From positions 1 to 64,000 of the forward strand of contig REEV01000051.1 of NCBI GenBank assembly GCA_007694915.1: a stretch of 64,000 nucleotides of DNA, written 5' to 3'. How positions within the stretch are numbered: the stretch's first letter is position 1; every line of letters starts with the position of its first letter. The DNA comes from Cyanobium sp. PLM2.Bin73. Lineage in GTDB: Bacteria > Cyanobacteriota > Cyanobacteriia > PCC-6307 > Cyanobiaceae. A program made the translations under genes and the position numbers. Positions 1,042-49,000 of the stretch are shown here, in pieces. The notes beneath the pieces were generated by a model, which saw only the letters and a program-made list of their open reading frames with translations, was not told where the DNA came from and made no database searches.

Positions 1042-1754
1042 TCCGCTTTCCCGCCACCCTGCACCACGGTCTTAACCGGCTCGGGCTCGGCCGGCTGGGG
1101 CTCGGCCAGCTCTGGCGGGGGCGCTCGCAGACTGCCGGGGGCGCCTCGCCAGCGGCTCTGCCGGTGGATCCGCTGTTGGCCGCCGGCGAGCTGTTGCGCC
1201 AGCAGCGTCAGCGGCGCCAGCTCAGCCTGCGCCAGCTGGCCGACGAAACCCGCATCAGCACCGCTGTGCTGGAGGCCATGGAGCGCGGCTGGCGCGACCG
1301 GCTGCCGGAGCCCGCCTACCTGCGCACGATGCTGCCGCTGATCGAGCGGCACCTCGAGCTGGAGCCCGGCAGCCTGAAGGGGGTGCTGCCCCAAGGCATG
1401 GCCACCGGCCAGCGGGGTCGCTCCGGCGGAGGTCTGCTGCGGCGCTTCACCCCCGGCTCGATCGATGTGTTCACCACCTGGCAGGGCACCGTGCTCTACG
1501 GGCTGCTCACCCTGGGGCTGATCTACGGGCTCAACCTGCAGCAGCAGCGCCTGGCAGCGGCCGGTCTGCTGGCGGTGACGCCAATCCCGCCGCGGCCCGC
1601 CAGCGGCGTCGATCCCCGCAAGGAGGCTGCCCCAGCCGGCGCCGGGGCCAGCGCCCACCAGGCGCTGCTGGACACCTATCCAGAGCTGCGACCTCTGAAG
1701 CGCGCCGCCGAGGGTCAGGCGCTGCGGCTGTGGCGGGAAGCCAGTTCGCCGTAA
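1014..1754 (+). CDS. RodZ-like helix-turn-helix protein with a single transmembrane segment
   Basis: 'GELLRQQRQRRQLSLRQLADETRISTAVLEAMERG...PEPAYLRTMLPLIERHLEL' HTH, followed by a TM segment near 'TVLYGLLTLGLIYGL'. Confidence 0.75.
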   Translation: MAGPGLRSLIRFPATLHHGLNRLGLGRLGLGQLWRGRSQTAGGASPAALPVDPLLAAGELLRQQRQRRQLSLRQLADETRISTAVLEAMERGWRDRLPEPAYLRTMLPLIERHLELEPGSLKGVLPQGMATGQRGRSGGGLLRRFTPGSIDVFTTWQGTVLYGLLTLGLIYGLNLQQQRLAAAGLLAVTPIPPRPASGVDPRKEAAPAGAGASAHQALLDTYPELRPLKRAAEGQALRLWREASSP

Positions 1755-3262
1755 CCCTTGAGCGGCCCATCCAGCTGCTCGATCGGCCGCTCCAGCCGCC
1801 AGGTCCAGTTCGCCCCCAGGGTGCCCGGGGTGTTGAAACGCGCCTCATCACCCAGTTCCAGCAGGTCCTGCAGGGGCACCACCACCAGCTCCGCCGGTGT
1901 GCGCAGCGCCAGCTCCAGCAGCTGCCAGCCCGGCGCGGTCACGGCGGCACCCAGCACGGTCTGCACCCGCCCACGCAGCTCGTCATCCAGTCCCCGCCAC
2001 CAGCCCACGGCCGTGGCGTTGTCGTGGGTACCGGTGTACACCACCCAGCCGGAACCATGGATGTTGGCGGGCAGGTAGGGGTTGTCCGGGTTGCCGTCGA
2101 AGGCGAACTGAAGGATCTTCATGCCCGGCAGGCGGTGGCGGTCCCGCAACGCCTCCACCGCCGGCGTGATCACCCCCAGGTCTTCGGCCACCAGCGGCAA
2201 CCGCCCCCCCACCAGGCCGCCCCGCAGAGCCAGCCGCAGCCACAGAGCGGACAGCAGCAGATGGCCTGGGGACGAGCGCCAGCGGCCGTCCTGGGCGGTG
2301 GCGGCCCCCCCGGGCACGCTCCAGTAGGCCTCCAGAGCCCGGAAGTGGTCAAGGCGCAGCAGGTCGAACAGCTCCAGCTGGCGCTGCAGGCGCCCCAGCC
2401 ACCAGCTGAATCCCGTAAGCAGGTGGCGCCGCCAGCGGTACACCGGTGTGCCCCAGAGCTGACCGGTGGCCGAGAAATAGTCGGGCGGCACCCCGCTCTG
2501 CTCCTCGAGGCCGCCGCCCTGGGCCAGGGAGAACAGGCCTGGACGGCTCCAGACATCTGCGCTGTCGTGGGCCACGTAGAAGGGCAGATCGCCGAACAGG
2601 CTCACGCCCTCCCGGGCGGCATGGCGGCGCAGGGCCTGCCACTCCTGCTGGGCCAGCCACTGCAGCAGGGTTTCGGCCAGCAGCTCCTTGCGGTGCCCGC
2701 GGTCAAACCGCCGCAGGGCGCCGGGCTGGCGCCGGGCCAGGGGCTCGGGCCACTGCCACCAGGGCCGGCCCTGCTGCTGGCGCCGCAGCACCATGAAGCG
2801 GCAGTGGTCGGGGAGCCAGAAGCGCTCCCGGCGGCACCAGCGGCGCAGGGCCCGCTGGCGCTGGCGCGACTGGTTGGGCCAGTGCTGGGCCAGGGCCCGG
2901 CCGAGGGCCTGGGCACGGCGGTCCTGCCGGGCCGGATCGAGGCGCTCGGCCGGGCCCTCACCCGGATCGGCCCCGTCCAAATCCGCGGCCGCGGCCCCAT
3001 CCGCAGCGGTGGCCGGGTCCAGGAAGCCCTGCTCCAGCAGCCGCTCCCGGTCCAGCAGCCAGGGGTTGAGGGCCGAACCGCTGGGAGAGCTGTAGGGCGA
3101 CCCGGTGCCGTCAGGCGGCGCCAGCGGCAGCAGCTGCCACACGCCGATGCCGTGGCGACCCAGCAGGGAGAGCCAGTCATGGGCGTGGCGGCCGAAGCTG
3201 CCGCAGCCCCCGGGCCCGGGCAGGGCCGTGGGATGCAGCAGCACGCCGGCGCGGCCGCTCAC
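1715..3262 (-). CDS. malQ: 4-alpha-glucanotransferase (amylomaltase)
   Basis: 'GRAGVLLHPTALPGPGGCGSFGRHAHDWLSLLGRHGIGVWQLLPLAPPDGTGSPYSSPS', 'LLRLDHFRALEAYWSVP', 'VVYTGTHDNATAVGWW'. GTG start at 3262 overlaps the upstream stop. Confidence 0.93.
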   Translation of the reverse strand: MSGRAGVLLHPTALPGPGGCGSFGRHAHDWLSLLGRHGIGVWQLLPLAPPDGTGSPYSSPSGSALNPWLLDRERLLEQGFLDPATAADGAAAADLDGADPGEGPAERLDPARQDRRAQALGRALAQHWPNQSRQRQRALRRWCRRERFWLPDHCRFMVLRRQQQGRPWWQWPEPLARRQPGALRRFDRGHRKELLAETLLQWLAQQEWQALRRHAAREGVSLFGDLPFYVAHDSADVWSRPGLFSLAQGGGLEEQSGVPPDYFSATGQLWGTPVYRWRRHLLTGFSWWLGRLQRQLELFDLLRLDHFRALEAYWSVPGGAATAQDGRWRSSPGHLLLSALWLRLALRGGLVGGRLPLVAEDLGVITPAVEALRDRHRLPGMKILQFAFDGNPDNPYLPANIHGSGWVVYTGTHDNATAVGWWRGLDDELRGRVQTVLGAAVTAPGWQLLELALRTPAELVVVPLQDLLELGDEARFNTPGTLGANWTWRLERPIEQLDGPLKGYGELASRHSRSA

Positions 3263-4536
3263 GCTTCCGGCAGCCGGTAGCGGCTCACGATCTTCTTGGC
3301 GAAGGCGGGGATGTGGGCCTCGGCCTTCTCGGGATGGTGGCGCCGCACCCAGAGGGCGTTGCGGGTGAAGTGGGAATCGATCGAAAAGCGGCCGTACTCC
3401 AGGCCCCTGGGTCCGAAGCGCTCCACCACCAGGCCGATCAGCCGGGCCAGCCACAGCGGCAGCTTCAGGGCCCTGTCATAGGCCTCGATGCCCTGCTGCA
3501 CCGCCGCCCGGCGGTCGCCGCTGGAGGTCACCGGCACCGTCTCCAGTTCGGGCTCCACCAGATCCAGCAGCTGCTGGCCCTTGCCGTTGCGCACGGTGAT
3601 CCACTGCTGGCCGAAGGTGGCCCCCATGTAACCCACCACCAGGTCGGCTCCGGCGTTGGTGTAGTCGAAGCAGCTCAGGCAGCTGGGGGCGAACACATCC
3701 TTGAGCTTGGGGGTATCGAGCCCGAAGAAGGGCACCGTCTCGGTGCGGCCGTCGCTGTGGCGGAAATGCACGCGGAAGTCCTGCATGAACTCGTAGTGCA
3801 CCACTGTCTCCGGCGAGCTCACCGTGCTCTCCAGGAAGGTCTGCAGACCCTGGCGGCTGACGTTGTCGACGCAGGGCAGCCCCAGCACGTAGAGCTCATC
3901 CAGCGGCAGGGTGGGCTGCACGGCGCGCAGCGCCTGGATCTGGCAGCCCACCCCGATCGCCAGCAGCCGGCGGATGCCGCTGCCGGGCAACTGCTCCAGC
4001 ACCTCCAGATTGGGCGAGAGCGTGGGCTTGTTCACCCGGGCGCTGAGCACCTCCTCGGGGGTGCGGGCCAGGCGCGGCACGGGGGTGAAGCGGTCGCTCT
4101 CGCTCTGGCCGACGCACAGCACCGCATCCACCAGGCCTGTTTCCAGGGCGCGCACGCCGATGCGGGTCACGATCCCGGTCCACTGGGCCCCGTCAATGGG
4201 CTGGCGCAGCCGTGCCATCAGCATGCGCTGGTGGACGCCGAAGTAGAGCTCATCCTCGTTGTCGAGATCGCGGCTGCGGCCGTGGGCCTCGCTCTCCATC
4301 GCCTCGAAGCGCTGGGTGAGGAAGGCGCAGCTGCGCTTCACGTAAGCCACCCAGCGGCTGTCGCAGAGACCGCACTGGCTGCAGAGGTCCTTGGCGGGAT
4401 ACACGCTGCCCTTGGCCAGGGGTCTGGCCTTCTCGTGAGGAGCCGGCACGGGAGGGCGGGTTGCTGCGGCACAACCTATCGGCTGCCCTGGACGGCGGGG
4501 GGCCTGGCAGAGGGCTGGGGCAGAGGGCTGGGGCAA
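3259..4536 (-). CDS. bciB: F420H2 dehydrogenase beta-subunit/HCAR family protein, likely ferredoxin-dependent 3,8-divinyl (proto)chlorophyllide a 8-vinyl reductase
   Basis: 'AKDLCSQCGLCDSRWVAYVKRSCAFL', 'LAIGVGCQIQALRA', 'DVFAPSCLSCFDYTNAGADLVVGYMG' resemble BciB/HCAR; exact start uncertain. Confidence 0.78.
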   Translation of the reverse strand: MPQPSAPALCQAPRRPGQPIGCAAATRPPVPAPHEKARPLAKGSVYPAKDLCSQCGLCDSRWVAYVKRSCAFLTQRFEAMESEAHGRSRDLDNEDELYFGVHQRMLMARLRQPIDGAQWTGIVTRIGVRALETGLVDAVLCVGQSESDRFTPVPRLARTPEEVLSARVNKPTLSPNLEVLEQLPGSGIRRLLAIGVGCQIQALRAVQPTLPLDELYVLGLPCVDNVSRQGLQTFLESTVSSPETVVHYEFMQDFRVHFRHSDGRTETVPFFGLDTPKLKDVFAPSCLSCFDYTNAGADLVVGYMGATFGQQWITVRNGKGQQLLDLVEPELETVPVTSSGDRRAAVQQGIEAYDRALKLPLWLARLIGLVVERFGPRGLEYGRFSIDSHFTRNALWVRRHHPEKAEAHIPAFAKKIVSRYRLPEA

Positions 4537-40857: not shown

Positions 40858-41355
40858 ATGTCGATGTCCCCGTCGATGTCCATGCCCCTGCTGCTCGCAG
40901 CCATGGCCCTGGGCCTTGTGCTGCCCTCCGCCGAGGCCCGCGCAGAACCCACAGAAACCCTGTACAGCCTAGAAACGCGCTGCTCGGTGGCCGGTGGCGA
41001 GCCCGAGCCCTGCGTGGTGGAGGCCACAAAGGATGCGGAGGGCACCACCTATCGGCACACGATCGGGGAGCGCGTTGAAACCGTGCGCATCAGCGATGCA
41101 CCGGTGCGGATGAGTGTCTGGGACCCCAGCAAGAACACCTGGAACCCCCTGAACAGCGCCGCAGCGCGTTTTTCCACCAACACGATCTGCTTCAACGGTC
41201 GCGATCTGTGTGTGGTGAATGCCAACTACCTCAACAGCGTGCGCGAGGAGCGTCCCGACGCCACCGCCGGCCGCGACCTGGTGCAGGTGCGCTTCGATGA
41301 CAGCGGTCGCGTGGACCTCACCTGCTACGACGACGGCTGCAAGGAGGTGCGCTGA
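40858..41355 (+). CDS. Hypothetical secreted protein with six cysteines after the signal peptide
   Basis: Signal peptide 'MPLLLAAMALGLVLPSAEARAEP'; four Met codons cluster at the N-terminus; GCGGAGGA-type RBS upstream. Confidence 0.75.
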   Translation: MSMSPSMSMPLLLAAMALGLVLPSAEARAEPTETLYSLETRCSVAGGEPEPCVVEATKDAEGTTYRHTIGERVETVRISDAPVRMSVWDPSKNTWNPLNSAAARFSTNTICFNGRDLCVVNANYLNSVREERPDATAGRDLVQVRFDDSGRVDLTCYDDGCKEVR

Positions 41356-42326
41356 TGAACCGCACGGCACAACGCGTCAGCCTGCTGCTCACCGGCGTTC
41401 TGGCGCTGCCCAGCTCGGTCACGCCGGCCCTCGCCCTCTCTGGCGCCGGCAGGCCATCGGCAACAGCCCCTCTGCTCGCCCGCGGCGGCGGCGGCGGCAT
41501 GGGCAGCGGACGCATGGGCAGCGGGGGAGGCGGCAGCCGACTGGGCAGCGGTGGCGGCAGCAGTGGCTTCAGGAACGCCGGCCCGGGCCTCAGCAGCGGC
41601 TCCAACAAGCCCAGTGGCGGCTGGAGCAGCAAGTCGAAGGGCAGCAGTGGTCCGTCGCTAGAGCGGCCCAAAGCGGTGGCCCAACCTCACGGCAGCAGCA
41701 GTGGCCTGGGCAACCGCGACATCAATCGCAACCAACGCAGCGGCGATCGCCAGGGCGTGCGCAGCGACAACCTCGGCCAGCGCTCCGATGTGCGCATGGA
41801 GCGCATCGACCAACGGGGTGACGTGCGCACAACCCGCATCGAAAACCGCACGGATCGGGTGCACGACCGCTCCAAGGTGCGCCGTGACCGCGTGGACAAC
41901 CGTGGGCGCAACTACTGGGACACCTATCCCGGCTGGGCTCGACCCGGCTGGGGCTACGCCCGGCCCTGGAACTCCGGCTGGTACGGCGGCTGGTCCAGCC
42001 CCAGCTGGGGCTGGTGGGGGCCCCGGGCCGCAGCCTGGGGCGTGGCCTCCCTCACCACGGCCGCGGTGATTAATGCTGCGGTGAATGATGCCGTGAACGA
42101 CCACGTGAGCTACATCGTGGTTCCCAACAGCAACTACGACCTGATGTACGGAACAATCGCACCGGTGGGCACGGAAGTGGTGAGTTTCGAGGTCTACATG
42201 GGAGAAACACCCATCACCATGCGGGCCGACTGCCGCCGGGGCACCCTCAACGGCAGCACCCCCAACACCATTGGGGAGGCGGAGTTGATGAATGCGGCCT
42301 GCCAGGTGGCCTTTGGCAGCGTTTGA
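41355..42326 (+). CDS. Hypothetical secreted Gly/Ser-rich protein with Arg/Asp-rich repeats
   Basis: Signal peptide; Gly/Ser-rich region; 'RSDVRMERIDQRGDVRTTRIENRTDRVHDRSKVRRDRVDNRG'; TGATG coupling to the upstream CDS. Confidence 0.75.
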   Translation: MNRTAQRVSLLLTGVLALPSSVTPALALSGAGRPSATAPLLARGGGGGMGSGRMGSGGGGSRLGSGGGSSGFRNAGPGLSSGSNKPSGGWSSKSKGSSGPSLERPKAVAQPHGSSSGLGNRDINRNQRSGDRQGVRSDNLGQRSDVRMERIDQRGDVRTTRIENRTDRVHDRSKVRRDRVDNRGRNYWDTYPGWARPGWGYARPWNSGWYGGWSSPSWGWWGPRAAAWGVASLTTAAVINAAVNDAVNDHVSYIVVPNSNYDLMYGTIAPVGTEVVSFEVYMGETPITMRADCRRGTLNGSTPNTIGEAELMNAACQVAFGSV

Positions 42327-42378
42327 ACCCCAGTTTGAACCCCGCAACCCATCACCGAAACTCCCCACACGTCACCGC

Positions 42379-43338
42379 GTGAAAACAATCTTCTGGAGTG
42401 CTCTGGTGACCCGGATCCCCCATCTGACCATCGCCCTTGGTGGCCTGCTGCTGGTGCAACCCTCGGGGCGCGCCGAAACGCTGGCGGCCGAAAGCCTGGC
42501 GATTGAAACAGCTGGCGGCGAAACAGCTGGCATCGAACCGCTTGAGGTGGAGCCGCTTGAGCTTGAGGTTGATTCTCCTGGGGTGAACGCAGCCAGTTCG
42601 CCCTCCTGGCGCGGCACAGTGGAGCTCTATGGGTTCGCTCCCCTGCGAACCACCGGCACCGCCCGGTTGCGGGGCTTCGAAGCGGATGTCGATCTGGATC
42701 TGGGGGATGTGCTGTCGGCCCTGGAGTGGGCCACCTATGTGCGCGGCAGTGTTGAACGCGAGCGCTGGGGGCTGCTCACCGATCTCAGTTACGTGAGGCT
42801 CGGTGGCTCCGGAGCCACAACGGGGCCTGCCGGCCGCCTCACGGGCAAGGCCGAGGTGAGCGATTCCCTGGGCATCTACGACCTGGCGTTGCGCTACCGC
42901 TTCGGCGAGCCGGAGGCCGCCATCGGCGAGAAAGGCTCCTTCACGCTCATCCCCTATGCGGGGGTGCGGGTGATTGATGTGGATCTGGATGTGGACGTGC
43001 AGGTGCAGGGCACCGGGCCACTGGGGTTATCGCTGGAGCGCCAGGGCAATTTCGGACGCACCTGGGCGCAGCCTCTGGTGGGGCTTCAGGGCAGCGTGTT
43101 TCTCTCCCCCCGTCTACGCGCCTTCGCCAGGGCCGACATCGGCGGTTTCGGCCTCAGCGGCGATCAGGACCTCTCCGGCAATGCCCAGGTGGGACTGGGT
43201 TATGCCATCGGCAACAACACCAACCTGAATCTCTCCTGGCGCTATCTGGGGGTGAAGTATCGCAACGATCGCAACCCCAGCAGCGGCTTCAGCAATTATG
43301 AGAATGGCATCGAAGTGGGGCTGAAATTCTTCTTCTGA
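42379..43338 (+). CDS. Outer-membrane beta-barrel protein
   Basis: Signal peptide, alternating amphipathic strands, C-terminal aromatic 'VGLKFFF'; GTG start inferred. Confidence 0.75.
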   Translation: MKTIFWSALVTRIPHLTIALGGLLLVQPSGRAETLAAESLAIETAGGETAGIEPLEVEPLELEVDSPGVNAASSPSWRGTVELYGFAPLRTTGTARLRGFEADVDLDLGDVLSALEWATYVRGSVERERWGLLTDLSYVRLGGSGATTGPAGRLTGKAEVSDSLGIYDLALRYRFGEPEAAIGEKGSFTLIPYAGVRVIDVDLDVDVQVQGTGPLGLSLERQGNFGRTWAQPLVGLQGSVFLSPRLRAFARADIGGFGLSGDQDLSGNAQVGLGYAIGNNTNLNLSWRYLGVKYRNDRNPSSGFSNYENGIEVGLKFFF

Positions 43339-43798: not shown

Positions 43799-44377
43799 TC
43801 AGGGGCCGGCCTGACCGTTCTCGTCGTGTTTGCGGCGTCGGTCGGCCCGCAGCACATGGCTGGCCCAGGCCGGTGCCGCCAGGGAAACCACAAGAATCGT
43901 GAGGGCGGTGCTGAGCCGGCTGGAGAAGGTGCGCGCCACATCCAGGCCGGAATACACGTAGGTGAGGGTCACGATGGCGGCGAAGACACCGGTGGTGAGC
44001 GCGCTGGCGGAGCGAATCAGATCGCGCGGTTGCTGATCGGGGTTGATGTTGGTGGCATTGCCGAAGAGCTGGCCCATCACGGCGCCGGCCACCATCAGCG
44101 CCAGCACCACGAGACCCCGCTCACTGACATGGTCGGCGGGGTTGGCGGTTTTCAGCTTGTCAGCCAGCACGGTGCCGGTGCCCACCAGGGCGCCACAGGC
44201 CAGCCCGATCACCCCCCACCACGATCCTGGCTGGCGGAGGCGGGTGCAGAAGCCCGCCCCTGCCGCCAGCACCAGGGCACTCGCCAGGGTGGCGGGCACC
44301 AGGGGGAGGCGATGCACAACGGCGTAGCCGAGAGCCACGCCGATCAGGCTGGAGAGCAGGCGATTGCGCTGCAGCAT
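43799..44377 (-). CDS. Uncharacterised polytopic membrane protein
   Basis: Several hydrophobic helices; starts 6 bp after the FGE-like gene on the same strand. Confidence 0.7.
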   Translation of the reverse strand: MLQRNRLLSSLIGVALGYAVVHRLPLVPATLASALVLAAGAGFCTRLRQPGSWWGVIGLACGALVGTGTVLADKLKTANPADHVSERGLVVLALMVAGAVMGQLFGNATNINPDQQPRDLIRSASALTTGVFAAIVTLTYVYSGLDVARTFSSRLSTALTILVVSLAAPAWASHVLRADRRRKHDENGQAGP

Positions 44378-44382
44378 CCGCT

Positions 44383-45327
44383 TCACGGGACCACCGGCAC
44401 CACGCAGCGGAAGCCCATGTGGCAGGTGGAGGTGTCGATGCCCTGGGCCAGGCGCGCCGCCGGCCGGTAGCGGTGGCAGTAGCTGGGGGCGCACAGAAAC
44501 GAGCCCCCCTTCACCACCTTGCGCGGCCTCTCCCCATGCTGGGAGCGGGGATCAATGCTGGCCGCCGCGGTGGCACAACACCCCGATGGATCCGTGTGAT
44601 GGGGGCCGTACCAGCTGTCGGTCCATTCCCACACGTTGCCGATCATGTCCACCAGGCCGTAGCCATTGCTGGGATAGGAGCCCACCGGTGAGGTGCGCTC
44701 GTAGCCGTCGAGGCGGCTGTTGTGGTGGGGGAAGTCGCCCTGAAAGGTGTTCGCCACCGGAATCCCGCCGGGATGGAGCTCATCCCCCCAGGCAAACTCA
44801 CAGCCCTCGCGCCCGCCCCAGGCGGCCCGCTCCCACTCGATTTCTGTGGGCAGCCGTTTGCCGCACCAGCGGGCGTAGGCCTGGGCGTCGGCGTGAGTGA
44901 TGTGCACCACCGGATGCTGATCGCGGCCCTTGATCGAGCTGCCGGGGCCTTCGGGATGGCGCCAGTCGGCACCGGGCAGGTACTGCCACCAACCGTAGTG
45001 ATTCTGATGGCCCACCGGGCCGGCGGGAGGCACAAACACGATCGAGGCGGGTTGCAGGCGCTGCGGATGGGCACCGGGATAGAGCCGGGGATCGGCAGGC
45101 AACTCAGCCTGGGTGCGATAGCCCGTGGCCTTCATAAACTTGAGGAACTGGGCGTTGGTGACCGGCGTGCGATCGATCCAGAACCCCAGCACCGAAACCC
45201 GATGGGCGGGCGCCTCCTCGGGGTAGTGGTGATCAGAGCCCATCACGAACTCACCACCCGGCACCCAGGCCATGCCGGTGGCCGGCGGGCGCCCCGGCGG
45301 GCGCCCCAGCTCGGCAACGTTCAGCAC
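44383..45327 (-). CDS. Formylglycine-generating enzyme (SUMF1/EgtB family)
   Basis: 'MAWVPGGEFVMGSDHHYPEEAPAHRVSVLGFWIDRTPVTNAQFLKFMKATGY', 'GKRLPTEIEWERAAWGG', 'DMIGNVWEWTDSWY', 'VVKGGSFLCAPSYCHRYRPAAR'. Confidence 0.93.
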   Translation of the reverse strand: MLNVAELGRPPGRPPATGMAWVPGGEFVMGSDHHYPEEAPAHRVSVLGFWIDRTPVTNAQFLKFMKATGYRTQAELPADPRLYPGAHPQRLQPASIVFVPPAGPVGHQNHYGWWQYLPGADWRHPEGPGSSIKGRDQHPVVHITHADAQAYARWCGKRLPTEIEWERAAWGGREGCEFAWGDELHPGGIPVANTFQGDFPHHNSRLDGYERTSPVGSYPSNGYGLVDMIGNVWEWTDSWYGPHHTDPSGCCATAAASIDPRSQHGERPRKVVKGGSFLCAPSYCHRYRPAARLAQGIDTSTCHMGFRCVVPVVP

Positions 45328-45383
45328 CCGATCACCCTCCCCACGGGTTCAGCCTCTGCTCTGGGTTGTATGCCCGCACCGGC

Positions 45384-46892
45384 CTACGACTGCCCCAGGG
45401 TGGCTTCCATCTTCTCGAGCACCTGCTGCACCGAGAAGCTGGCGGCTTTCTGGCGCGGCGGGAACTCCACGAAGGTCTGCAGGAACTGGCCAACGTAGGT
45501 CTGGGCCGGCACCAGCAGAAAGACGTGATCGAACATCCAGTCCCAGTAGGTGTTGGAGGTGATGTCGGCCCGCTCGTAGGGATCGGTGAGCAGGTTGAAG
45601 ATCTTCGGCACCCGCAGCTGGATGAAGGGTTCGGCCCAGATCTGGCAGGTGCCCTGCACCCGCTGCTCGGCGAACACGAACTTCCAGTTGTCGTAGCGCA
45701 GACCGGTGAGATCGCCGTCGTCGGAGAAGTAGAAGAACTCCCGCCGCGGGCTCACCTCGCTCTTGCCCGTCCAGTAGTCGAGCATGTTGTAGCCGTCGAG
45801 GTGCACCTTGAAGGTCTTGTCACCCACCTGGTGGCCGGCCTTGAGCTTCTCCTTCACATCTGGTTCACCGGCGGCCGCCACCAGGGTGGGAAGCCAGTCG
45901 AGGTGGCTGACGATGCCGGTGAAGGTGGTGCCAGGGGCAATCTTGCCGGGCCAGCGCACCACGGCCGGCACCCGATAGGCCCCTTCCCAGTTGCTGTTCT
46001 TCTCGTTGCGGAAGGGGGTCATGCCGGCATCGGGCCAGCTGTTCATGTGCGGCCCGTTGTCGGTGCTGTACATCACGATCGTGTCGTCGGTGACGCCCAG
46101 CTCATCCATCAGGTTGAGCATCTCACCGATGCACTCGTCGTGATAGATCATCACGTCATGGTATTCCGATTGCCAGCGCCCACTGCGGCCCACATCCTGG
46201 GGTCGGGCATAGGTGCGGAAGTGCATGTGGGTGGTGTTGAACCACACGAAGAAGGGCTCACCGGAGGCCACCGCATCACGGATGAAGCGCTTGGCCTCGG
46301 CCATGAATTCATCGTCGGCCGTTTGCATGCGCTGACGGGTGAGCGGGCCAGTGTTCTCGATCCGCTGGGTGCCGTCGCCGTTGGCCCAGCAGTGCAGCAC
46401 GCCGCGGGGGGCGAAGCGCTTGCGGAAGTTGGGAAACTCGGGGTCGTCTTCCTTGGGGTAGTCGCGAAGTTCGGGCTCTTCTTCCGCGTTGAGGTGGTAG
46501 AGGTTGCCGAGGAACTCATCGAACCCGTGCATGGTGGGCAGGTGTTCGTCGCGGTCGCCGAAGTGGTTCTTGCCGAACTGGCCGGTGCGGTAGCCGTGGG
46601 GCTTGAGCAACTCGGCGATGGTGGGATCCTCGGCGCGGTAGCCCACCTCAGCCCCTGGCAGCCCAACCTTGCTGAGGCCGGTGCGGAACACGCTCTGGCC
46701 ACTGATGAAGGCGGCGCGGCCGGCGGTGCAGCTCTGCTCGGCGTAGTAGTGGATGAACTTGCCGCCCTCCTTGGCCACGCGGTCGATGTTGGGGGTCCGA
46801 TACCCCATCAGGCCATCGCTGTAGCAGCTGAGGTTGCTCTGGCCGATGTCATCGCCCCAGAGGATCAGGATGTTGGGCTTGCCGTTGGGCAT
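45384..46892 (-). CDS. Type I (Cys-type) sulfatase/arylsulfatase
   Basis: 'KPNILILWGDDIGQSNLSCYSDGLMGYRTPNIDRVAKEGGKFIHYYAEQSCTAGRAAFISGQ' carries the C-x-A-x-R formylglycine motif (Cys codon 46728-46730); 'GYRTGQFGKNHFGD', 'YSTDNGPH'. Confidence 0.95.
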   Translation of the reverse strand: MPNGKPNILILWGDDIGQSNLSCYSDGLMGYRTPNIDRVAKEGGKFIHYYAEQSCTAGRAAFISGQSVFRTGLSKVGLPGAEVGYRAEDPTIAELLKPHGYRTGQFGKNHFGDRDEHLPTMHGFDEFLGNLYHLNAEEEPELRDYPKEDDPEFPNFRKRFAPRGVLHCWANGDGTQRIENTGPLTRQRMQTADDEFMAEAKRFIRDAVASGEPFFVWFNTTHMHFRTYARPQDVGRSGRWQSEYHDVMIYHDECIGEMLNLMDELGVTDDTIVMYSTDNGPHMNSWPDAGMTPFRNEKNSNWEGAYRVPAVVRWPGKIAPGTTFTGIVSHLDWLPTLVAAAGEPDVKEKLKAGHQVGDKTFKVHLDGYNMLDYWTGKSEVSPRREFFYFSDDGDLTGLRYDNWKFVFAEQRVQGTCQIWAEPFIQLRVPKIFNLLTDPYERADITSNTYWDWMFDHVFLLVPAQTYVGQFLQTFVEFPPRQKAASFSVQQVLEKMEATLGQS

Positions 46893-47004
46893 GGAGGGAG
46901 CAAAGCAAGCTTCAGGGTGAAGGACCAGGCGGCCCGCGCGCAATCCGCCGCCATGGTTGGCGAGCGTATTGCGCGCTTTCTGCAAACTTCAGCGCATCCA
47001 AACG

Positions 47005-47904
47005 TCAGCGCACCCGGTCGCCGCGCAGCTGGAGCCCACGGCGCTGCCAGCGCAGCACCGGCAGAGACACCAGCACCGTGACCAGCACGTACACCAGGAT
47101 GCCCAATTTCACCCCTGGCATCTCCGGGGCATAGGTGCTGGCCAGGAGCAGGGCCAGTCCCGGGTTGCGCATCGACGTCACCAGGGCCACGGTGATGCGC
47201 TGACCGGATTGGGCCACCTGATCGCCGGCCAGCAGATAGCCGAGCATCAGGCTGAACAGCACCAGCAGCACCATCACGCCAATCGCCCCGAGGTTGGCGC
47301 TGGAGAACTGGAGCAACAGTGGTGCCGTGCGCACCAGCACCGCCAGCACCAGCAGCACCAGCAGGCCATTGGCGAGCCGATCGAGCACCAGCCGCAGCCT
47401 CGGTCTGCGCTCGGGCAGCAGGCGGGCGAGGGCCAGCCCCAGCAGCAGGGGCAGCAGCTGCACCTGGCCCACCTGCAGTGCCACCTGGCGTGGCAGCAGC
47501 AGATCCCAGCCCTGCACGGCGAACACCGGCCCGCTGAGGTCGGCGAGCAGGGGCAACGTGACGATCGCCAGCACCGCGGCGCACACCTGAAGCAGGCCGG
47601 CCAGCGACGCATCACCACCACTTTTGCCGGCCTTGCGCAGAATCAGCGGGGCGCTGGGACAGGCGGCCATCAGGGCAATGGCATGGCGCGCCTCAATGGA
47701 GAGGGCCTGGGCTGGGGGCAGGCTGAGCAGCAGCCAGCCCGCCAGGGGCACCAGCAGGCAGGTGGCCAGTTCAGCCCGCAGGATCAGGGGCCAGTGGCGG
47801 CGCCACTGTTGAAAGGCCTGGAGCGGCAGGTTCACCCCCAGCGCCAGCATCACGGTGAAGAGTGTGAGTGGCACCAACAGGGCCACGGTGGCTTGCGCGC
47901 TCAC
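47005..47904 (-). CDS. Bile acid:sodium symporter (BASS) family transporter
   Basis: 'LFTVMLALGVNLPLQAF', 'MAACPSAPLILRKAGKSGGDASLAGLLQVCAAVLAIVTLPLL', 'VTSMRNPGLALLLAS'. Start uncertain; a longer ORF extends to 48018. Confidence 0.82.
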   Translation of the reverse strand: MSAQATVALLVPLTLFTVMLALGVNLPLQAFQQWRRHWPLILRAELATCLLVPLAGWLLLSLPPAQALSIEARHAIALMAACPSAPLILRKAGKSGGDASLAGLLQVCAAVLAIVTLPLLADLSGPVFAVQGWDLLLPRQVALQVGQVQLLPLLLGLALARLLPERRPRLRLVLDRLANGLLVLLVLAVLVRTAPLLLQFSSANLGAIGVMVLLVLFSLMLGYLLAGDQVAQSGQRITVALVTSMRNPGLALLLASTYAPEMPGVKLGILVYVLVTVLVSLPVLRWQRRGLQLRGDRVR

Positions 47905-47977
47905 AGCACAAAAACGGAGAACTCCATGCCCTAGATTCCGCCCGGCTTCCGGCACAGCCGAGCCATCCTGCACGCTG

Positions 47978-49000
47978 ATGGGCACCGATACCCAGCCCCT
48001 GGCCTTCCCCAGCCACATCTGCCATGTGGACCGGGATCCCCAGACCCTTGCCGCACGCCTGGCACAGCACTATTCCATTCTGGATTTCGGCCCCCGGGCG
48101 GGCTTCGAGGCCAATTTCCTGCATTGCTCCCGCAGCTGCATGGCCGGTGAGCTGCTGCTCTCCGGCGGCTACACCACCCCGATCAGCGGCACCATCGGTG
48201 AGCAGGCCGGGATCGGCTCGATCAACCTCATCTTCAATGGCAGCGGTGACTACGAGGCCGACGGGCTGAAGATGGGGCTCAACTCAAGCCGGCCCCTGTT
48301 CTTCTCACCCGGCCAGGAGTATCACTTCGCCATCAACCATTACAACGGTGTGGTCTTTCACATCAACATGGATCGGCTCGCGCGCACTGCAGCCGCCATC
48401 GGCGGGCTGGGAATTTCCGAGCGGCGCTTCGCCAGCGACCTCTCCTTCACCAGGGTGGTGTACAGCGTTGACCTTCGCCGTAAACGGCTGCTTGAGATCC
48501 TGCGCGGCGCCATTCGCCTGCTGGATCACACTGGCCAGGAGATCAACGGTGATCTGCAGGTGCTGCAGATCGACGATCTGATCTATCGCACCCTGGCGCT
48601 GGTGCTGTGCCCTGGGCTGGAGCAGCCCGCGGCTCAAGAGCCTGCAGCAATTGGCGGCAAGGAACGGATCTTCGAGGAGCTGCTGGAGTGGATTCGCGCC
48701 CATCTGCACACCCCGATCACCCTCACCCAGCTGGAGCAGCGCAGCGGCTATTCACGCCGCACCCTGCAACTGGTGTTCAGCCAACGCTTCGGCTGCGGCC
48801 CGATCCAGTGGATTCGCCAGCAGCGGCTGGAGCAGGCACGCCTCGATCTGCTGAGCCCCGTCCCTGCCGACACGGTGAGCAGCATCGCTGCGCGCTACAG
48901 CTTCAGCAGCCCGGCGGTGTTCAGCCGCGACTTCCACAGCCGCTACGGGGTGACGCCCTCCACATTTCTGCGCGAAGGGCGCCGGCATCAACCCTCCTGA
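47978..49000 (+). CDS. AraC-family transcriptional regulator
   Basis: C-terminal HTH 'HTPITLTQLEQRSGYSRRTLQLVFSQRFGCGPIQWIRQQRLEQARLDLLS...SIAARYSFSSPAVFSRDFHSRYGVTPSTFLRE'. Confidence 0.95.
   Translation: MGTDTQPLAFPSHICHVDRDPQTLAARLAQHYSILDFGPRAGFEANFLHCSRSCMAGELLLSGGYTTPISGTIGEQAGIGSINLIFNGSGDYEADGLKMGLNSSRPLFFSPGQEYHFAINHYNGVVFHINMDRLARTAAAIGGLGISERRFASDLSFTRVVYSVDLRRKRLLEILRGAIRLLDHTGQEINGDLQVLQIDDLIYRTLALVLCPGLEQPAAQEPAAIGGKERIFEELLEWIRAHLHTPITLTQLEQRSGYSRRTLQLVFSQRFGCGPIQWIRQQRLEQARLDLLSPVPADTVSSIAARYSFSSPAVFSRDFHSRYGVTPSTFLREGRRHQPS

Follow-up and report, generated by a model that had tools for sequence, protein, structure and literature searches.

Sulfatase–FGE pairs of aerobic S1 systems consist of a Cys-type (formylglycine) sulfatase that adjoins its own formylglycine-generating enzyme (FGE), both with intact active sites. 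In Escherichia coli K-12, the yidFGHIJKL locus combines a divergent AraC-type regulator (YidL), a secondary transporter (YidK) and a sulfatase (YidJ) with the DUF202 protein YidH, the similar-looking YidG and the maturase-related YidF; we found no characterisation of the locus itself in the open-access literature. To our knowledge, most sulfatase substrates are unknown, and neither DUF202 nor DUF1622 has an assigned function. Among picocyanobacteria, an S1 sulfatase has been reported in freshwater strains and as absent from marine ones, and was tied to sulfur supply (Cabello-Yeves et al. 2022, PMC9361551); the passages of that account on the gene concerned, CK_00006730, do not describe linked genes.

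Here we analysed a window of 64,000 nucleotides (the whole stretch of DNA under study; contig REEV01000051.1, positions 1 to 64,000) from Cyanobium sp. PLM2.Bin73. Its sulfatase–FGE pair resembles those of aerobic S1 systems and belongs to a set that is additionally linked to a BASS carrier, DUF202, DUF1622 and an orphan membrane protein, hereafter MEM. The set is real and widely conserved among bacteria, and we give a probability of roughly one half to the reading that it takes up an organosulfate under AraC control and desulfates it in the cytosol.

Layout of the locus

An earlier note, made from the sequence alone, had proposed five genes here, and open reading frame calls together with family profiles recovered all of them in place. 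The AraC-family regulator (47978–49000, plus strand; PF12833 (HTH_18), 2.3e-20; PF00165, 4e-14) is divergent from the transporter, as the note had said, and the other four genes lie on the minus strand: the BASS/ASBT-fold transporter (47005–47904, GTG start at 47904; PF01758, 1.2e-11), the predicted cytosolic Cys-type sulfatase (45384–46892; PF00884, 8.5e-44), the aerobic FGE (44383–45327; PF03781, 6.3e-81) and MEM (43799–44377), a polytopic protein with about six predicted helices and no family match. The sulfatase most likely starts at the ATG at 46892 (MPNGKPNIL...), since the alignment with relatives begins only at this point and no leader-like stretch precedes the domain; a TTG open reading frame reaching 46985 was rejected as an over-extension. 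Long plus-strand open reading frames opposite these genes (for example, 45366–47081) were set aside as antisense artefacts of G+C-rich DNA.

The FGE stop codon is separated from MEM by 5 bp and the sulfatase from the FGE by 56 bp. The 112-bp gap between BASS and sulfatase counts against an inducible set, as does a consensus scan of the locus for promoters and terminators, which found none. About 90 bp 5′ of the sulfatase start, the motif AAGTTTGCA (46981–46989, minus strand) is a weak candidate operator that recurs 5′ of the sulfatase in another Cyanobium locus (L022). A related heptamer, TGCACTT, occurred in 13 of 33 sulfatase upstream regions compared with 0.8 in shuffles, the sequences being related and not independent; we treat the two motifs as a lead to a possible AraC site and nothing firmer.

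Three recurrent neighbours occupy 40858–43338 on the plus strand. They encode c7, a small secreted protein (40858–41355; no family match; 16 of the 31 full-flank relatives described below have it within 8 kb of the sulfatase), c6, a secreted Gly-rich protein (41355–42326; no family match; 17 of 31), and c9, a predicted outer-membrane beta-barrel (42292–43338; weak PF13505 match, 2e-4; 14 of 31). This trio could serve the same process at the outer membrane.

Sulfatase, activator and carrier

The sulfatase combines the PF00884 domain with the C-x-[PA]-x-R motif of S1 enzymes, present as SCTAGR, and is the sole PF00884 protein in the genome. Aligned to human arylsulfatase A (1e2s/1e1z), it conserves the metal-binding and catalytic residues where these could be mapped (DD, C, R, K-x-H, H, DN and K). 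Its closest solved structure is the arylsulfatase 7aj0, followed by human arylsulfatase A; identity as a choline sulfatase (TIGR03417) was rejected at 89.5 bits against a curated cut-off of 433. The neighbouring FGE retains both copper-binding active-site cysteines (GGSFLCAPSYC, aligned to the solved FGEs 6muj and 6s07 with matches at 1e-68) and is the only full-length strong scorer among four FGE-domain matches at three places in the genome. The proposed pairing of enzyme and activator therefore stands, with both active sites intact as judged by alignment. No signal peptide, the presence of which the earlier note had named as a possible refutation, was seen before the sulfatase domain; the leaderless enzyme, the FGE and the carrier are thus consistent with intracellular desulfation.

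ASBT and NTCP, carriers of the BASS (SLC10) family, share a ten-helix fold with two broken helices. The AlphaFold model of the window protein (pLDDT 90.6) has this fold, with ASBT_NM and NTCP as its top Foldseek matches in the PDB at TM-scores of about 0.7–0.8. The sodium sites are another matter: S114, N115, E260 and Q264 of ASBT_NM correspond to I, L, V and R in a remote alignment of about 20% identity, and the Na1/Na2 ligands are replaced in the window protein and 43 relatives in sequence alignment. None of these 44 aligned BASS proteins restores E260 or Q264, and Arg246, located at the break of TM9, is invariant in 36 aligned sequences. Thus, the earlier label of a BASS-family symporter holds for the fold, whereas its Na+-coupled sense is doubtful, since the aligned ligands are replaced and an invariant arginine is found instead. 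We infer that coupling is altered in this carrier; the arginine perhaps meets an anionic group or substitutes for the sodium charge.

Searches of Pfam, NCBIfam and PHROGs returned nothing for MEM, and its AlphaFold model of moderate confidence (pLDDT 77) matched no solved fold in the PDB. An alignment of 11 sequences shows a conserved core, RSASALTTG...GLDxARTFSSRLS. MEM was found in 43 of about 300 family genomes.

Linkage across relatives and distant phyla

To follow the genes across relatives, open reading frames were called in 80 related loci and clustered, and profiles were built; counts refer to the 31 loci of Cyanobium/Synechococcus type whose 8-kb flanks are complete; these were chosen by similarity to the query and are not independent. 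Within 8 kb on either side of the sulfatase we found FGE in 28 of 31 loci, BASS and DUF202 in 27 each, AraC-profile genes in 26 and DUF1622 in 24, along with HAD phosphatase genes in 14 and MscS in 12. Gene order varies: the group MEM–DUF1622–DUF202–BASS lies either 5′ or 3′ of sulfatase–FGE, and in many loci AraC diverges from the sulfatase itself. The exact order of the window locus was found again in L022 (Cyanobium ATX 6A2) and L003. Linkage that persists despite scrambled order argues for functional ties, and with the same genes linked in dozens of genomes it is far above chance. Several observations count against an inducible set: some related loci have no FGE or BASS nearby, and MEM is absent from most, lying within 8 kb in only 9 of 31.

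The linkage that the earlier note had wanted checked is conserved in these relatives. Its core genes were right; it had missed DUF202, DUF1622, the HAD genes, the c7/c6/c9 trio and the parallel with yidFGHJKL. The new element is the recurrent membrane group of DUF202, DUF1622, MEM and BASS.

On the scale of whole genomes, DUF202 was present in 68 of 73 genomes with a sulfatase ortholog, in 61 of them within 12 kb. The genome studied here is exceptional in that its single DUF202 and DUF1622 genes lie away from the window locus on another contig (C85). There, at 1133–3800 (L116), they adjoin second copies of c7 and c6, so that the set occupies two separate sites in this genome. Outside the family, 10 of 30 distant loci have DUF202 in the flanks of the sulfatase ortholog; they come from Planktothrix, an Oscillatoriales bin, Mesorhizobium, Nitrospira, Cupriavidus (three), Variovorax (two) and a Methanocella bin; the same sulfatase and DUF202 are therefore neighbours in Pseudomonadota and Nitrospirota as well as in a methanogen bin. 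With 47 DUF202 matches spread over these 30 genomes, whose mean size is about 5 Mb, we roughly estimate that chance would yield about 0.15 such loci.

The same roles also surround other sulfatases. In a sister genus (g34), FGE, MEM, BASS, DUF202, DUF1622, AraC, c6, c7 and c9 are grouped around at least one sulfatase of about 800 amino acids, which belongs to another subfamily and is only distantly similar to the window enzyme. Islands of this sister genus (L107–L112) sometimes also carry a sulfotransferase, and one of the roughly 800-residue sulfatases has a lipoprotein-like leader. In E. coli, profiles of the window set match YidL (1e-9), YidJ (2e-10) and YidH (2e-6). YidJ is a distant relative of the window sulfatase, YidK is a sodium:solute symporter of a family other than BASS, and the locus lacks DUF1622, MEM and BASS, which belong to the window-type set. 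YidF (L102, 5115–5612) matches only residues 160–245 of an anaerobic sulfatase maturase and appears to be a residual maturase lacking the radical-SAM part, standing in place of FGE. For the yid-type placement of DUF202 next to the sulfatase operon the picture is mixed: it is seen in 27 of the 31 relatives, but in the genome studied here the DUF202–DUF1622 pair lies on the other contig. Across these loci the roles persist even though the sulfatase subfamily, the maturase and the carrier differ; DUF202 is retained.

Other variants were seen. Four related loci (L035, L037, L040 and L041) have another sulfatase in tandem, with about 50% identity, and one or two DUF1254/DUF1214 proteins after it, and in L031 (9622–11806) the FGE match is in two pieces with about 1.2 kb and other open reading frames between them, possibly an insertion. 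The open-access literature yielded nothing relevant on DUF202 in combination with DUF1622 or with sulfatase operons, nor on arylsulfatases together with DUF1254 or, in Synechococcus, with AraC; one candidate DUF202 paper (PMC10434189) was rejected, as it concerns DUF2023/DUF2027.

Origin and possible roles

Some sulfatase match was found in 100 of about 300 family genomes, and an ortholog (82–96% identity) in 73. Among the genomes listed, nearly all those of the window's genus have the ortholog, and reduced genomes (1.3–1.9 Mb) are mostly without it. A maximum-likelihood tree places the window sulfatase in a cyanobacterial clade (support 100/99), whereas Planktothrix and Pseudanabaena fall in another cyanobacterial clade, and the G+C content of the locus (66–67%) is mildly lower, by about 4–5 points, than the approximately 70–73% of most of the window. 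The locus had been suspected to be a laterally acquired island; presence in nearly all listed genomes of the genus, the well-supported clade and the only mild G+C drop led us to reject recent acquisition, and the data agree with long residence and some transfer between phyla. Nor is a sulfatase unexpected in a picocyanobacterium, as had been thought, given its breadth in the family and the published freshwater S1 sulfatases (PMC9361551). CK_00006730 of that paper, an S1 sulfatase typical of freshwater strains, is probably the same gene as the window sulfatase.

How the set would work can be sketched from these comparisons. The AraC protein would sense a ligand and turn the set on. The BASS-fold carrier would pass an organic anion through the inner membrane; the direction is probably inward, and the classical two Na+ sites probably do not power it. 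The cytosolic sulfatase, predicted to be activated by its own FGE, would then cleave off sulfate. The small membrane proteins DUF202, DUF1622 and MEM may belong to the same process, perhaps as partners of the carrier or as an exit for sulfate or product. In favour of this uptake and desulfation count the linkage, the distant DUF202 loci, the enzyme swap in the sister genus, the E. coli parallel, the leaderless sulfatase and a carrier fold shared with the organic-anion carriers NTCP and ASBT. A bolder proposal, which we hold only tentatively, is that DUF202, DUF1622, MEM and a BASS protein free of Na+ sites form an undescribed complex for organosulfate transport or sulfate release that follows whichever formylglycine sulfatase a lineage uses. 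Such a complex, if it exists, would explain why DUF202 lies beside the E. coli yidJ sulfatase.

Alternatively, the set may serve sulfur scavenging and release sulfate from its esters where the inorganic form is in short supply, as in fresh water. The freshwater distribution of S1 sulfatases reported for picocyanobacteria and its link to sulfur supply (PMC9361551) speak for this, as does the origin of many related loci in freshwater Cyanobium and Synechococcus. However, the sulfatase ortholog occurs with FGE, BASS and DUF202 in Prochlorococcus MIT 0701 (L065), a member of a genus of sulfate-rich seawater, which makes pure scavenging less likely; the set is also found in the brackish strains WH 5701, SynAce01 and BSA11S, and its control gene is of the AraC type, typical of substrate-specific induction. 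We therefore consider scavenging unlikely.

Transport could also run the opposite way, with BASS as an exporter. Endogenous sulfotransferases would then make an ester that the sulfatase trims, and BASS, DUF202, DUF1622 and MEM would move product or ester outward, perhaps in an envelope or osmotic response. Sulfotransferase-family proteins score above cut-off at three places in the genome, a sister-group island has a sulfotransferase adjoining its AraC gene, and genes for MscS, MscL and for outer-membrane and secreted proteins are repeatedly found in the vicinity. Against such turnover of an own product, which we judge rather improbable, neither the window locus nor the loci of close relatives contain a sulfotransferase, and the likeness to catabolic regulons of AraC, transporter and enzyme favours uptake. 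That the formylglycine enzyme acts chiefly on phospho- or phosphonate esters and not as a sulfatase is very improbable, for despite weak similarity to PehA-type hydrolases and the HAD phosphatase genes near 14 of 31 loci, its closest solved relatives are arylsulfatases and not phosphonate monoester hydrolases.

That DUF202 and DUF1622 recur next to unrelated sulfatases in phyla far apart links both to the handling of sulfate esters, and the role of these uncharacterised membrane proteins becomes testable through their recurrence with the set. If this BASS clade indeed lacks Na+ ligands, it would be informative on how coupling can change within the ASBT fold. In ecological terms, the set could serve as a marker of the dissolved organosulfates that picocyanobacteria use.
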